From positions 1 through 22,071 of the IMG/VR virus record IMGVR_UViG_3300027771_000120: 22,071 nucleotides of DNA. The stretch is one strand, 5' to 3'. Positions 11,641 through 17,300 of this stretch are shown here, one piece after another. A program made the position numbers and the translations under genes. The DNA is from a virus. Numbering within the stretch: position 1 is the stretch's first letter; the number at the start of each line of letters is the position of its first letter. The notes under the pieces were generated by a model. It made no database searches. It saw nothing but the letters and a program-made list of their open reading frames with translations, and was not told the origin of the DNA.

Positions 11641-11653
11641 CAACCGGAGGTTG
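11641..11653 (-). promoter_or_regulatory. GGA-loop hairpin, candidate virion-RNAP promoter upstream of AAA+ gene
   Basis: Plus strand CAACC-GGA-GGTTG: perfect 5-bp stem, 3-nt loop. It lies in a 48-nt gap between two leftward genes. The plus strand is the template for leftward transcription, which is the strand on which the N4 virion RNA polymerase reads hairpin promoters. With N4 geometry (loop centre at -11) the start would be 11636, before the SD of the AAA+ gene; the template base there is G rather than the preferred C. Confidence 0.5.
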
Positions 11654-12093: not shown

Positions 12094-12139
12094 TAGGTGC
12101 TCTTGTATTTAATTGCGGGGTTTAATCCTACTCACCTGA

Positions 12140-12154
12140 CACACCGGAGGTGTG
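12140..12154 (-). promoter_or_regulatory. GGA-loop hairpin, best candidate for an N4-type virion-RNAP promoter
   Basis: Plus strand CACACC-GGA-GGTGTG: perfect 6-bp stem with a GGA loop. Template-strand CC lies at 12135-12136, separated from the loop by 9 bases. This equals the spacing I recall for the N4 P2 promoter (template CC, 9 bases, GGA loop), where the transcript begins GG. Predicted start 12136, 43 nt before the first codon at 12093. It sits between a terminator and the next operon. Confidence 0.6.
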
Positions 12155-12354: not shown

Positions 12355-13563
12355 TTAGGACAACGCGTAATTGCTCTGTCGTATGAGGGTAGAGATGTAT
12401 GGCGTTACCTTGTCGATGGTGACAGGTGCCTGATTCACTTGGGTTAAGATATTAGCTAGTAGGTCAGAATCACCTAGTTGTGCAAATATTTCAATGTAGT
12501 GATGACGTACATGGTTCATGTTATTAGCATGCGCCTTGAACTCGTCATGCACACACACTAATGGAAAGGACTTATGCAATAGTGACGTGCTGATTAAGTA
12601 ATCAAGGCGGAGTAAATCACTATTTGAGTAAGACAAGACTGTTGTTTTACTTGTTACCAAGTTATCAGCCTCTACAATAGACATAAAAGCACTGGTATCA
12701 ACTGTAGTTGGTACTGGGCCACGCTTGCTAAGCTCACTACGTACTAGCTGCTGTGCCGTTTGCAATACTCTATAGTCGTAGTTACAGCGTCTATTCATCT
12801 CTCTGACGATCATGCCGTCAATGGAGTGAACGATATTCGCTGCAATACTCAATCCGCTCTCTGTACCTTCATTTTCATAGAAACGGTGGGTAAAAGTAGC
12901 ATGATCTAACTCATCCACTTCAATCTTAACGTCTACTGGCGTCATTACCTTGCACTTAGCTTCAAAGCCGTCCGGTAGCGTCCAGTCATGAGACAGTGCA
13001 AACGGTTGCCAAGAGCCTAATAACATTTCCATGGTCGTTACCGCCCCTGGTGCCACTTCAGCTTGCGCTTCATAGAACTTCTCTAGCTCAATAGTCTCTT
13101 TACCGAAGATTTCTTTAGGCTTACCAGTAGAACCGTAAAAGTGAGTCATCAATGCCTGCTTAATATCAGCACGATCAGGAGACACTCTAATACCTACCTG
13201 TTGTAATTTACGGTTCATTACAGCAGTCACATCGGTATAGATGTCTGCACGTATGTTAGGATTAACTAAACCTGTAGACTCACACGTCACGGGACAGCCC
13301 ATTAGAGTACCCATGATCTGAATACCTGATGAACAGGCGTCTAATCCTACAAGATGCCCACTAGGGACACCTGATTGTGCATTACGTAGTGCCATAACAG
13401 CAGCAACATACAATGGGCTAGCACTTGCATCATCTACTAATGACTCAAGACTACCTATATGATGATCTACCCAATTAATACGGTCATTGAAAGTCTCTTT
13501 CTCTAAGCCGTAGTGGTTAGCTATATCAATCTTAATGTACTCAAATCCGGTAAATGTCTGCAT
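12355..13563 (-). CDS. Single-subunit RNA polymerase, C-terminal subunit (N4 RNAPII gp16 type)
   Basis: 402 residues, close to the length recalled for N4 gp16. It begins at FEYIKIDIANHYG, which lines up with T7 RNAP YYWLKIHGANCAG just after the GND motif, so it carries palm and fingers. Motif A LDACSSGIQ (D75), motif B R131-x3-K135-x7-Y143-G144, the HSIDG element (236-240, T7 HSQDG) and motif C VHDEF (D330, T7 IHDSF) are all intact. About 80 residues separate HSIDG from motif C, against about 20 in T7. It needs the N-terminal subunit encoded at 14292-15188 to make a complete polymerase for middle genes. ATG at 13563 with AAGGAG upstream. Confidence 0.95.
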   Translation of the reverse strand: MQTFTGFEYIKIDIANHYGLEKETFNDRINWVDHHIGSLESLVDDASASPLYVAAVMALRNAQSGVPSGHLVGLDACSSGIQIMGTLMGCPVTCESTGLVNPNIRADIYTDVTAVMNRKLQQVGIRVSPDRADIKQALMTHFYGSTGKPKEIFGKETIELEKFYEAQAEVAPGAVTTMEMLLGSWQPFALSHDWTLPDGFEAKCKVMTPVDVKIEVDELDHATFTHRFYENEGTESGLSIAANIVHSIDGMIVREMNRRCNYDYRVLQTAQQLVRSELSKRGPVPTTVDTSAFMSIVEADNLVTSKTTVLSYSNSDLLRLDYLISTSLLHKSFPLVCVHDEFKAHANNMNHVRHHYIEIFAQLGDSDLLANILTQVNQAPVTIDKVTPYISTLIRQSNYALS

Positions 13564-14128: not shown

Positions 14129-14292
14129 GAATTGCCCTCCACTTCTGATATGTCAATCACTTCAACGTCATCGCCACCTACTAGTGCGATGAATTCTTCA
14201 ATAGCTTGTGCTTCTGCTTCTTGTTGGTTTATGGCCTCAACGTAGACTCGTCTACCTGTGCCTCCATACACGTATGCTGAATAACTGTTCAT
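14125..14292 (-). CDS. Small protein directly after RNAP subunit 1, 55 aa
   Basis: MNSYSAYVYGGTGRRVYVEA followed by a Gln/Ala helix (INQQEAEAQAIEEFIALV) and an acidic strand. Its ATG overlaps the RNAP1 stop codon (TAATG), so translation is coupled to the polymerase subunit and it should be made in similar amounts. The strand-strand-helix-strand arrangement is like that of the following 65-residue protein, so the two may be distant paralogues. No known family. Confidence 0.7.
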   Translation of the reverse strand: MNSYSAYVYGGTGRRVYVEAINQQEAEAQAIEEFIALVGGDDVEVIDISEVEGNS

Positions 14293-15188
14293 TAGTTAAC
14301 TCCTTCAATTAGTTCTTTGTCCGATAGCTCGACGATTGCTTTTCTGAAGCTATTACCCTGCGTAGAGCAGTGATAGCCCTGAGCATAAGTACGCCCACGC
14401 TTATCGACACGATGCGTTAGCCAGAACTCGTTGCCGTGCTGTACTAAGTCACGGTAGACTTCATAGCTCTTCTTAACGAAGGTCATCCACTGTTCTTTCT
14501 TAACTGGATCAGTGAATTCTTTCTTAGGTTCTTCACTAAACGTCTTTAGTAGATGTACGTTCAGACTTAGTGGCACTTGGTTAAACTTATTAATGGAATC
14601 TAAGCAGATGTTCTCAGTATGAAAGTTACCTTTACCTAGAATCATGCTTTCACGCTTCGTGAGATACCCACTATCATGGTTAGTACGAATATCAAGAGGT
14701 GGACAGATCATTGGTGGCAGGTACATGGTCTGTTCAATGAACTTGGTGATCTTCTCGTCTAACTCAAAGGTAGATACCAAGTAGATAGACCCGTGATCTG
14801 TATTCTTGTACAAATCATAGACATCTAATGAAACTAACGTAGCTAATAGCTCTGCTGCTATCTTGGCTCCATCGCCCTTGTCAGTCATACCTATAACTGA
14901 AGCAACTTCACCTACAACAGATGTGTATAGCTCAGGCTTCTGCTTACGCAACGTGACCAAAATGATGTCCTCAACCGTCATAACAAGATCACGGTTCAAC
15001 ATAAAGTCAGCTATACGTTTATTCTTACTCTTATAGTAAGACTGGTTTGCGTAAAACTTTATTAGACTTACTGCGTCTACTATCTTTGCCTGCAATTCGG
15101 TAGAGTTTAGAAGTGAGTCTTTCAGATATGTCCTGATGTACTTCTTGCTGTACATGTACTCCGTTTGTCTTTGGTTTTCTACAAACAT
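14292..15188 (-). CDS. Single-subunit RNA polymerase, N-terminal subunit (N4 RNAPII gp15 type)
   Basis: 298 residues from the ATG at 15188, which has GGAG 7 nt upstream; a GTG at 15209 would add seven. The last 40 residues hold HRVDKRGRTYAQGYHCSTQG then NSFRK, the T7 RNAP motif WRGRVYA...NPQGNDMTK. The protein then stops, at exactly the place where RNAP2 begins in the T7 alignment. The rest corresponds to the N-terminal and thumb parts of T7 RNAP. N4 RNAPII is a heterodimer split at this point and works with accessory early proteins on single-stranded promoters. The true N-terminus is uncertain: a strongly initiated overlapping frame starts at 15249 (see separate entry). Confidence 0.9.
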   Translation of the reverse strand: MFVENQRQTEYMYSKKYIRTYLKDSLLNSTELQAKIVDAVSLIKFYANQSYYKSKNKRIADFMLNRDLVMTVEDIILVTLRKQKPELYTSVVGEVASVIGMTDKGDGAKIAAELLATLVSLDVYDLYKNTDHGSIYLVSTFELDEKITKFIEQTMYLPPMICPPLDIRTNHDSGYLTKRESMILGKGNFHTENICLDSINKFNQVPLSLNVHLLKTFSEEPKKEFTDPVKKEQWMTFVKKSYEVYRDLVQHGNEFWLTHRVDKRGRTYAQGYHCSTQGNSFRKAIVELSDKELIEGVN

Positions 15189-15249
15189 AAGGGTTCTCCC
15201 ACTCTTCACGTTGATACTGGATTTCTTGCAAGTAACTACTATCTTCCAT
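15031..15249 (-). other. Overlapping reading frame at the 5' end of RNAP subunit 1
   Basis: The ATG at 15249 has a strong AGGAG 6 nt upstream and opens a 72-codon frame (MEDSSYLQEIQYQREEWENP...) that runs across the beginning of the RNAP1 gene in another frame. Its first 20 residues look like the N-terminal helix of T7-type polymerases (LQxExxYQREEWEN), whereas its later part (SKLYRIAGKDSRRSKSNK) looks like shadow coding. A +1 shift between about 15210 and 15160 would join it to RNAP1 and give a polymerase subunit about 20 residues longer. Either a programmed shift, a sequencing/assembly indel, or a short leader peptide would explain this. Confidence 0.45.
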
Positions 15250-15261
15250 CACTCACTCCTG

Positions 15262-15276
15262 GTTGCCGGAGGCAAC
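15262..15276 (-). promoter_or_regulatory. GGA-loop hairpin just upstream of RNAP subunit 1
   Basis: Plus strand GTTGCC-GGA-GGCAAC: perfect 6-bp stem plus a G-T closing pair, GGA loop. Third copy of the CC-GGA-GG core, with flanks different from the other two yet still pairing. The N4 geometry would place the start at 15258 on a template C, 9 nt before the ATG at 15249 and within its ribosome site, which would favour the internal start at 15188. Confidence 0.5.
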
Positions 15277-15447: not shown

Positions 15448-15693
15448 TTATGCGAATGAAAGTTTCTCTTCACTCTCAGACATGACATTTACGTCAATTA
15501 CAAGCTGAGCTTTTTCTAGCTCGTCTTTATTTTCAATAAGAAAGGCATGTAATTCCTTATTGCCATATAAAGGGATACCACCAATCTGCTTTTCACCATT
15601 CTTCAACTTAATAGATACGTTGAACCAGGCATCAGCCTTATTAGAATTCATGTTAGAAACGTTATTTACGCGACGGTTTAGCATGTTAGCCAT
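15448..15693 (-). CDS. Conserved small early protein, 81 aa
   Basis: MANMLNRRVNNVSNMNSNKA, then the distinctive segment DAWFNVSIKLKNGEKQIGGI followed by PLYGNKELHAFLIENK. I recall this W-x-N-V-S ... I-G-G-I-P-L-Y pattern from other phage proteins without a function. The strand-rich centre with a later helix might be an OB-like or small beta fold; a single-stranded-DNA or RNAP accessory role, like the N4 early activators, is conceivable but unproven. AGGAG lies about 8 nt before the ATG. Its own leader (hairpin at 15741-15761) and own terminator make it a one-gene transcription unit. Confidence 0.8.
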   Translation of the reverse strand: MANMLNRRVNNVSNMNSNKADAWFNVSIKLKNGEKQIGGIPLYGNKELHAFLIENKDELEKAQLVIDVNVMSESEEKLSFA

Positions 15694-15740: not shown

Positions 15741-15761
15741 CCACACACCAACGCCAGTTGG
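15741..15761 (-). promoter_or_regulatory. GCCA-loop hairpin repeat A, candidate early promoter
   Basis: Plus strand CC-A-N9-GCCA with a 5-bp stem CCAAC/GTTGG around GCCA. Same register as the copies at 16757 and 17094. The CC is 49 nt from the ATG at 15693; repeat B has the same 49-nt distance to its gene. Confidence 0.5.
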
Positions 15762-15978
15762 CCCTTAGTTGTTAGACTTATGTCTAATGGATGGGAGTAA
15801 GGTTAATGAGTAAAGTGTGTTGCGTTTTGCGCAACGTGTATGTCTGTGAGTGTGTAGTGTGTGACCAGATTTGAAGGGAATTTAGTATATCGACCACTAA
15901 CCACTAAATGAGTGATATCTAGGAAGTTAGTATCACGGTTCGTACTATGTACGGCATAAGCTATCTAAGGGCGTTTAA

Positions 15979-16002
15979 GGCAACCCCATAGCTGAGGTTA
16001 CC
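15979..16002 (-). terminator. Weak hairpin after the 46-residue Cys-rich gene
   Basis: GGCAACC pairs with GGTTACC (7 bp with one C-A mismatch) across a 10-nt loop, 9 nt beyond the stop of the gene at 16011-16151. The leftward T-tract is short (TTAAA), so this may be only a weak terminator. Confidence 0.35.
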
Positions 16003-16010
16003 TAATACTT

Positions 16011-16151
16011 CTACTGCTCTTCATAGGTACAGTACACTGGCCCAGCGTCAGGCTCTAGGTAGTCTAGCTTTACCTCATCTGCATACTCACAATGAAGTAC
16101 AGCAGTGTAGCCATCACCGTGCATTGTTCCACCACAACTCTCACAACTCAT
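16011..16151 (-). CDS. Small Cys/His protein, probable zinc binder, 46 aa
   Basis: MSCESCGGTMHGDGYTAVLH, then CEYADE ... PVYCTYEEQ. Cysteines at 3, 6, 21 and 41 with His 11 and 20 give a CxxC...HC...C arrangement that could hold one zinc. The CxxCGxxMHGDGYT start recurs in small phage proteins of unknown role. Strong SD (AGGAG, 8 nt) and a 4-nt ATGA overlap with the upstream membrane protein gene. Acidic C-terminal half. Function unknown. Confidence 0.75.
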   Translation of the reverse strand: MSCESCGGTMHGDGYTAVLHCEYADEVKLDYLEPDAGPVYCTYEEQ

Positions 16152-16318
16152 ACCCTTCTCCTTACTGCACTCAGACGAGTACGTCTACTGTTAGTAATAG
16201 GTACACGATGTACCCACATATGATGTACACCTGACACTGCAAGTAGTACGAATGGCAATGCCATAGCGTAGCCTAGCGGTGTACTTGCTAGCGCTACTAA
16301 TAGTTCTAAATCAGACAT
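16148..16318 (-). CDS. Small single-pass membrane protein, 56 aa
   Basis: Starts MSDLELLVALASTPLGYAMA at the ATG at 16318, preceded by AGGA about 8 nt upstream. One long hydrophobic helix (about residues 6-36) is followed by a His pair and a strongly basic tail (HRVPITNSRRTRLSAVRRRV). The positive tail predicts N-out/C-in orientation in the inner membrane. It overlaps the upstream 68-residue gene by 13 nt and the downstream Cys-rich gene by 4 nt. Early membrane proteins of phages often act on host physiology or superinfection; nothing specific shows which. Confidence 0.7.
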   Translation of the reverse strand: MSDLELLVALASTPLGYAMALPFVLLAVSGVHHMWVHRVPITNSRRTRLSAVRRRV

Positions 16319-16512
16319 TGTGAATATCCTTGTACCCAACCACGTTGAATAAAGCTATTCCATACCTTACGAGCTTCAACTCGTGAACAGGTATAGTCTT
16401 CGTCACACCAGTCACCTTCTACGTCTTCTCTAATAAATACAGAGTCACCAGTAACAACGAACTCTTGAGAGTACATCTGGCATTCTGCGTGTACTAATGT
16501 ATATGTGGTCAT
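16306..16512 (-). CDS. Small early protein, 68 aa
   Basis: Start at the ATG at 16512 because AGGAGG lies 6 nt upstream. MTTYTLVHAECQMYSQEFVV..., an acidic centre with CDEDYTC, and a C-terminal helix VEARKVWNSFIQRGWVQGY. The EARxxWxxxxxxGW ending recurs in small early phage proteins of unknown role. Four cysteines but no clear CxxC pair. First gene of a three-gene overlapping set (16512-16011). Confidence 0.72.
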   Translation of the reverse strand: MTTYTLVHAECQMYSQEFVVTGDSVFIREDVEGDWCDEDYTCSRVEARKVWNSFIQRGWVQGYSQCLI

Positions 16513-16583
16513 ATTGACCCTCCTGAACGTACACGCTACCCACACCAGTTAGGATGTAGGTAACATATCGTTAATGTTAAATG

Positions 16584-16709
16584 TTAAATAGAATCAAGTA
16601 CTTGAGAGATATCAACTTGAATATCTTCTATTTCATAGACAGAGGTGAACTGATCTACATAGTCTAGGTAGTCCAAGGTGTGTTCAGCGTTAATGTAATC
16701 TGTAAGCAT
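16584..16709 (-). CDS. Very small acidic protein, 41 aa
   Basis: MLTDYINAEHTLDYLDYVDQ ... ending VDISQVLDSI. Strong SD (AGGAG, 7 nt from the ATG). Very acidic (about ten Asp/Glu, one basic Lys/Arg absent) and aromatic-rich; such small acidic early proteins can mimic DNA or bind host enzymes, but that is speculation. Repeat B of the GCCA hairpin family lies 49 nt upstream. After its stop there is a TTAACAT tandem (16565-16588 region). Confidence 0.65.
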   Translation of the reverse strand: MLTDYINAEHTLDYLDYVDQFTSVYEIEDIQVDISQVLDSI

Positions 16710-16756
16710 GAGAGCTCTCCTGTTATGAGTGTGGCATACGGTTAAGTCCGTACATC

Positions 16757-16776
16757 CCACCCACTAGCGCCAGCTA
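16757..16776 (-). promoter_or_regulatory. GCCA-loop hairpin repeat B, candidate early promoter
   Basis: Plus strand CC (16757-16758)-A-N9-GCCA (16769-16772), with TAGC/GCTA pairing around GCCA. It shares the run CTAGCGCCAGCT with repeat C apart from one base. Located 49 nt before the ATG at 16709. Confidence 0.5.
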
Positions 16777-16812
16777 TAGCTCTATCTTCCTTACGATCTA
16801 TCTATCTCGTTT

Positions 16813-16832
16813 TGTGTGTGTGTGTGTGTGTG
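16813..16832. repeat. (TG)10 dinucleotide repeat
   Basis: Ten uninterrupted TG units in the non-coding gap between the first two early genes. Dinucleotide tracts of this length are rare in compact phage genomes and are prone to slippage; it may affect DNA conformation near the early promoters. It lies between the terminator at 16845 and repeat B. Confidence 0.9.
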
Positions 16833-16844
16833 TTCTCTTAGGGC

Positions 16845-16880
16845 TAAAAGAAATACCCCCAACCTTGCGGTTAGGGGAAT
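16845..16880 (-). terminator. Intrinsic terminator after the first early gene
   Basis: On the leftward strand CCCC-T-AACC pairs with GGTT-G-GGGG around a GCAA loop (one mismatch), followed by TATTTCTTTTAG. It starts 4-7 nt beyond the stop of the 56-residue gene. A one-gene transcription unit with its own hairpin promoter candidate and its own terminator. Confidence 0.75.
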
Positions 16881-16883
16881 AGG

Positions 16884-17054
16884 TTAGACCTCGATGGCCT
16901 TGGTCTTAAGTGCGGCTTCACGTTCCTCGTCACGGAACCGAAGAGCTGCGTCTTCTGCTGTTTCCATGATGGCATCAATGGTATTGATAGCACGATCAAA
17001 CAAGCCTAGAGTCTTGATGATTGAGTTGAATAGTTTTGAGATTGCTTCGCGCAT
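16884..17054 (-). CDS. First leftward early gene, 56-aa helical protein
   Basis: MREAISKLFNSIIKTLGLFD followed by RAINTIDAIMETAEDAALRF and a charged end. An amphipathic start (possibly membrane-associating) then long helices with acidic and basic patches. AGGAG lies about 9 nt before the ATG at 17054. It is the outermost leftward gene before the divergent gap and therefore likely among the first genes to enter the cell and be transcribed. I recall similar small helical early proteins in N4-like phages, with no function known. Confidence 0.75.
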   Translation of the reverse strand: MREAISKLFNSIIKTLGLFDRAINTIDAIMETAEDAALRFRDEEREAALKTKAIEV

Positions 17055-17081
17055 AGTATGTACTCCTGATTATATTTAGAC

Positions 17082-17091
17082 GGGGGCCCCC
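17082..17091. repeat. GGGGGCCCCC palindrome
   Basis: Perfect 10-bp GC-only palindrome, directly beside repeat C and 27 nt before the first early gene. It is the most GC-rich spot in an otherwise AT-rich gap. With the start predicted from repeat C it would fall in the 5' leader of the first early transcript. Confidence 0.7.
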
Positions 17092-17093
17092 AT

Positions 17094-17112
17094 CCATTCA
17101 TTAGCGCCAGCT
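17094..17112 (-). promoter_or_regulatory. GCCA-loop hairpin repeat C, candidate early promoter
   Basis: Plus strand CC (17094-17095)-A-N9-GCCA (17106-17109). Same register as repeats A and B, but with only a 3-bp AGC/GCT stem. The sequence CATCCA at its 5' side is also the start region I recall for the N4 P2 template strand. Located about 40 nt before the ATG at 17054. Confidence 0.45.
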
Positions 17113-17300
17113 TTTAGTATAGGGGGGGGTATTCCGATTTAGTTGCAGTTAGTACTACAGTAATGAATCGGTACCTAAATTATATAATTCCAATAAACCT
17201 GCGAATCAGTTCCTATTTTATTATTTTCTAAATAACCTGAATAACTTTCTAAATAATAATTATTAAAATAATAATAATAATATTTACTTTTCTATAGGCG

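Follow-up and report, generated by a model that had tools for sequence, protein, structure and literature searches.

Hairpins with four-base loops before early genes of an N4-like phage fragment: a putative tetraloop variant of the virion RNA polymerase promoter

Background

Recognition of a DNA hairpin by a polymerase has its textbook example in the promoter of phage N4, whose three-base loop has been treated as part of the family-wide rule. In N4, extrusion of the hairpin on the template strand is driven by gyrase, and the virion RNA polymerase (vRNAP) contacts both loop and stem and starts transcription at +1C; the closing base pair and the G and A of the loop are required for the hairpin, and the three sites P1 to P3 of N4 are mapped vRNAP promoters (PMC4496689). 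Early promoters with hairpins are also described for LUZ7, LIT1 and PEV2 (PMC3715699), and hairpins have been predicted before early genes of Pectobacterium CB1-like phages (PMC6027278).

We found no paper that describes such promoters with a 4-nt loop, the key N4 papers being only partly covered. A natural four-base class with the same stability bases, situated before the same genes and switched genome-wide, would provide an evolutionary series for loop recognition. In tetraloop lineages, a search for 3-nt loops misses the promoters, and the annotation of early genes would improve with a four-base class.

Three hairpins with GCCA loops in the early region

The stretch of DNA analysed here (the window; 22,071 nt), a virus record of 22 kb, encodes an N4-like set of RNAP1, RNAP2, ATPase, DNA polymerase and terminase. 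With RNAP1, RNAP2, N4-like replication genes and terminase it qualifies as a Schitoviridae (N4-like) fragment. RNAP1 (N4 gp15-like; 14292..15209, minus strand) marks the N4-type early region, and RNAP2 (N4 gp16-like) is located at 12355..13563 on the same strand. The early genes are read leftward, and the plus strand is thus the template. A vRNAP gene is absent from the 22-kb fragment, no RNA families or tRNAs were found in the window, sigma-70-like sites are not enriched, and a first scan of genome contigs with the window RNAP2 as query returned no relatives.

A first-pass annotation had pointed to three plus-strand copies of the pattern CC-A-N9-GCCA, and we found them at exactly the positions it gave, with perfectly paired stems of 3, 4 and 5 bp as it had claimed. 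P1 (17094..17112, plus strand) comprises CC at 17094-17095 (inferred +1 at 17095), followed by A-N9-GCCA, with the 3-bp hairpin AGC-GCCA-GCT at 17103-17112 and the core CGCCAG at 17105. The same arrangement is seen in P2 (16757..16776, plus strand), with CC at 16757-16758, an inferred +1 at 16758, the 4-bp hairpin TAGC-GCCA-GCTA at 16765-16776 and the core at 16768, and in P3 (15741..15761, plus strand), with CC at 15741-15742, an inferred +1 at 15742, the 5-bp hairpin CCAAC-GCCA-GTTGG at 15748-15761 and the core at 15752. The spacing between CC and loop is 11 nt in every copy, and the loop comprises 4 nt on the template strand, likewise in all close relatives; a strict 3-nt criterion is not met.

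All three sites are placed before early genes and upstream of RNAP1 and RNAP2, which is the N4-type location. P1 is followed by a gene for 56 aa (16884..17054, minus strand; a terminator-like site comes next at 16877-16856) and P3 by a gene for 81 aa with a weak match to phrog_6271 (15448..15693, minus strand; terminator-like site next at 15441-15417). The gene after P2 (16584..16711, minus strand) encodes 41 aa from the ATG at 16711; with the alternative GTG at 16760 as start, the gene would be longer and would extend into the P2 hairpin. From the inferred +1 to the likely start codons (17054, 16711 and 15693) the distances are 41, 47 and 49 nt for P1, P2 and P3, respectively. Counted in this way, from the C adjoining A, the annotated distances of about 41 nt for P1 and 49 nt for P3 stand, and the 49 nt given for P2 come close to the value found.

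With stems of only 3 to 5 bp, the hairpins might be chance palindromes or be plainly inherited without function. However, CC-N9-CGCCAG was observed three times in the window compared with 0.25 expected; with a stem of 3 bp or more it occurs three times on the plus strand and never on the minus strand, and 400 dinucleotide shuffles yielded such a core with stem at a mean of 0.015 and a maximum of 1. No further site that combines the CC register, the CGCCAG core and three or more stem pairs is present on either window strand. The looser pattern CCA-N9-GCCA alone gives a weaker signal (6 in the window, 2.07 expected). Taken with the covariation and the strand-controlled, family-wide enrichment reported below, the shuffle tests leave practically no room for chance or functionless inheritance. 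Nearest-neighbour DNA folding indicated modest stability of the hairpins and, with the parameters used, did not clearly favour the template strand.

Other hairpins and sequence features in the window

A degenerate fourth member that had been suspected at 16539-16557 was rejected: this site has neither a GCCA core nor a stem, and the sequence conserved there in L173 and L175, TACCCACACCAGTT, forms no pairing around a loop. A GGA triloop hairpin does exist at 12135-12150 (core 12145; 6 bp), and its register is, as previously annotated, within one base of that of the GCCA copies (10 versus 11). Its CC stands at the N4-like spacing of 10 and precedes a gene for 64 aa by about 43 nt, and the hairpin is retained with an identical stem in L002; no counterpart was seen in L003. 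Whether it is a promoter, in a genome with otherwise tetraloop early hairpins, is undecided. Two more c-GGA-g hairpins, at 15262-15276 (core 15267; directly before RNAP1) and 11641-11653 (core 11645; directly before the ATPase gene), have CC off-register (9 and 13, respectively) and were not counted. In the L002 counterpart of the former the stem is retained and the loop is GGAC, suggestive of a function in RNA or of some other function for this hairpin.

Upstream of P1, at 17120-17175, a G-run followed by CTACAGTAATGAA is conserved in L002 and L003; this stretch possibly lies near a genome end or packaging site. A (TG)10 tract at 16813-16833 is located immediately upstream of P2 and is present in L002 too.

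Conservation and covariation in relatives

Loss or unpairing of GCCA in relatives that keep the downstream genes would have refuted the promoter interpretation, and we did not observe this. The core is retained at all covered homologous sites in L173, L175, L176, L177, L178 and L208, which are about 75-80% identical there. In the next relative, L003 (RNAP1 61% identical), hairpins with the loop GACA and different stems are found at all three corresponding places, including that of P1. Pairing of the P2 stem is retained as AAGC/GCTT in L177 and as GAGC/GCTC in L003, and the P3 stem, CCAAC/GTTGG in the window, reads TGCGC/GCGCA around the GACA loop in L003. Four of five stem pairs are altered on both sides (10 cells compared with 3.0 in shuffles, none of 500 being as high), and the C:G closing pair, the 5' loop G and the 3' loop A do not vary in any of the 17 aligned copies. 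A shifted 3-nt loop, which had been offered as an alternative, is unneeded, as c-GNNA-g pairing is seen throughout the copies and relatives. Orthologues of the P1 gene are found behind tetraloops in L002, L003, L173 and L175, and behind a triloop in L204. As a separate observation, the orthologue of the terminase-side gene in L208 (5435-6255) contains an internal repeat that carries a stop and may be an assembly artefact.

By covariation and strand bias alone, a DNA hairpin is indistinguishable from an RNA hairpin of the opposite strand, and the sites might thus act in the leftward mRNA as leader, processing or terminator hairpins with the loop UGGC, or UNNC in general. However, a C:G closing pair with G first and A last in the loop is what N4 needs for extrusion of its DNA hairpin, the CC keeps a constant distance of 11-12 nt, the triloop orthologues are published DNA-hairpin promoters, and P1 to P3 were not called as terminators, terminator-like sites being found elsewhere. 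A role at the RNA level is therefore quite unlikely, and we prefer to regard the three sites as DNA-hairpin promoters.

Two loop classes in the Schitoviridae

For a family-wide view, about 230 Schitoviridae loci around RNAP1, RNAP2 or a terminase-side gene were surveyed, and P1 to P3 of N4 were recovered as a positive control. Triloops of the type c-GNA-g with CC at 12 nt were observed 183 times on the template strand and 19 times on the control strand; the template-strand counts of c-GNNA-g tetraloops were 45 for CC at 11 nt and 49 for CC at 12 nt, compared with 8 and 14 on the control strand. When all loop sequences were ranked without prior choice, c-GNA-g and several c-GNNA-g loops were the strong outliers, both among triloops (template versus control: GGA 117 versus 5, GAA 80 versus 13, GTA 56 versus 11, GCA 42 versus 14) and among tetraloops (GTTA 14 versus 0, GGTA 13 versus 1, GATA 14 versus 5, GGCA 9 versus 1). 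The loop c-CGAA-g also ranked high (15 versus 2), probably through alternative pairing of C-GAA-G triloops. DNA loops of the forms d(cGNAg) and d(cGNNAg) are both known for unusual stability, a property that would account for the prominence of precisely these two classes.

Stems were not selected for in a further comparison. At spacing 11-12, 12% of the CC-spaced c-GNNA-g cores have a stem of at least 4 bp, versus 2-3.5% on the control strand; the values are 3-4% at spacings 10, 13 and 14, and 7% at spacing 9, the latter at least partly because many sites have a second CC there. A Shine-Dalgarno sequence and a start codon follow 15-75 nt downstream of 63 of 90 tetraloops (70%; median 40 nt) and 223 of 304 triloops (73%; median 42 nt), compared with 1 of 22 (5%) and 7 of 46 (15%), respectively, on the control strand.

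In some genomes almost all loops share even their central base (all GTA in L027, all GAA in L016 and L325, and similarly in others), as if the loops of a genome evolved together. No clear GNA or GNNA promoter hairpins were seen in the early regions examined of L008 (Tribble) and of the group L126, L134, L133 and L140, which may rely on different loops or spacings. Early regions of N4-like type that contain tetraloop promoters were also encountered in bacterial contigs of 233 kb (L323, Alteromonas sp. BMJM2, with five tetraloops and no triloop) and 914 kb (L324, Xenophilus sp. Marseille-Q4582), whose assemblies also contain a vRNAP; these regions look like integrated elements.

Orthology to triloop promoters and apparent loop switching

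The genes following P3 and its counterparts form a cluster of 74 members (some contigs enter via more than one locus), in which the preceding hairpin is a triloop in 60 cases and a tetraloop in 14. LUZ7 and LIT1 belong to this cluster on the triloop side, and it is for genes of this stretch that their early hairpin promoters with 3-nt loops were published (PMC3715699). The window P3 gene matches the LUZ7/LIT1 family, phrog_6271, only weakly (E 4.8e-5). Near-sister pairs differ: before a 91-aa gene and at equal spacing, L029 has CCATTCCATGCG-CGGAG and L031 has CCATTCATAGCG-CGTAAG.

Genomes use almost exclusively triloops or almost exclusively tetraloops. Among the 67 genome groups that have three or more sites, only 21 sites belong to the minority class of their group versus 58.9 after shuffling (minimum 46 of 5000), a statistic that is helped by near-copies. 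In an RNAP2 tree built on 60 rows of strictly assigned class, the 10 tetraloop rows need six changes, five of which are forced by well-supported branches, and gene exchange has possibly inflated this number. One tetraloop group (support 93) unites the window with L003, L017, L020 and L323 and stands next to L016, which has triloops. A switch thus seems to affect the whole set of early promoters of a phage at once, and it would presumably follow a change in the virion polymerase of that phage. With some reserve, we lean towards the interpretation that loop size is an evolving specificity code in the Schitoviridae, with repeated all-promoter switches between c-GNA-g and c-GNNA-g driven by changes in the loop-recognition element of the vRNAP. 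Loop class gave no clear difference between the vRNAP tree and the RNAP2 tree (five changes each in the strict set, 7 versus 8 in the wider set). Residue changes matching loop size were not discernible in the vRNAPs, which are too divergent, and the N4 contact residues K114, R119, W129, D901 and R904 could not be assigned in the vRNAPs of tetraloop phages, the alignment at 21-30% identity being too uncertain.

A probable tetraloop variant of the N4 promoter

P1 to P3 are very probably early promoters and would represent a tetraloop variant of the hairpin promoter of the N4 virion RNA polymerase. A 4-nt-loop variant of the N4 rule had been proposed in the first-pass annotation, and this proposal is supported by conservation, stem covariation, template-strand bias, fixed spacings, orthology to published triloop promoters and the family-wide c-GNNA-g class; recognition by the vRNAP is inferred. 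The strict N4 definition, a 3-nt loop with a central purine, excludes the three sites, and tetraloop variant is therefore the best name. By analogy with N4, the template (plus) strand would form a small extruded hairpin under negative supercoiling, the virion-carried RNA polymerase would bind loop and stem, and transcription would start leftward on a C about 11 nt from the hairpin. The N4 triloop c-G-N-A-g is replaced by c-G-N-N-A-g, with a single added loop base, and the bases that N4 needs for hairpin stability (C:G closing pair, first-loop G and last-loop A) are retained. Transcript-end or binding data do not exist for any tetraloop phage; the start site, the extrusion, the recognition by the virion polymerase and its co-evolution with the promoters are thus inferences. 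The stem of P1, with just 3 bp, the absence of the -11 purine and of -8G from some copies, the lack of a vRNAP gene on the fragment and the modest folding stability without clear strand difference are among the weak points of this explanation.

The window encodes RNAP1 and RNAP2 but no vRNAP, and sequence alone does not identify the polymerase. The hairpins might serve a different early regulator, such as the middle polymerase RNAPII (gp15/gp16-like), as promoters or operator-like sites. We consider this unlikely: the sites occupy the same kind of place as P1 to P3 of N4, which are mapped vRNAP promoters (PMC4496689), and as the LUZ7/LIT1 promoters, before orthologous genes, and they sit upstream of RNAP1 and RNAP2 themselves.

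Comparison with known promoters and polymerases

L003, the nearest near-complete relative and a tetraloop phage, has an N4-type vRNAP open frame of 3354 aa (E 2e-24), and a profile built from such vRNAPs matches the N4 vRNAP structures (E ~5e-61). The vRNAP open frames of L350 and L352, the records behind L102 and L128, are about 4350 residues long and thus far longer than that of N4 with 3500.

The likeness to P1 to P3 of N4 comprises a template-strand hairpin before early genes, the presence of three copies, a C at the start site (inferred in the window), the C:G closing pair, and a loop with G first and A last. The window differs from N4 in its loop of 4 rather than 3 nt, in its CC-to-loop spacing of 11 rather than 10, and in the loop centre, which is CC in the window and AC in L003, whereas N4 has a purine at -11, a criterion that is not fulfilled. 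At the position of the N4 -8G, next to the closing C, P1 and P2 of the window have G and P3 has A. Across tetraloop genomes the CC of the inferred start site is held at 11-12 nt. The predicted early promoters of Pectobacterium CB1-like phages (PMC6027278) resemble the window in that hairpins are predicted before early genes. The early promoters of LUZ7, LIT1 and PEV2 (PMC3715699) differ from those of the window by a 3-nt loop and a CC-to-loop spacing of 12, and share with them the P3 gene family (phrog_6271-type) and similar stems of 4-5 bp.
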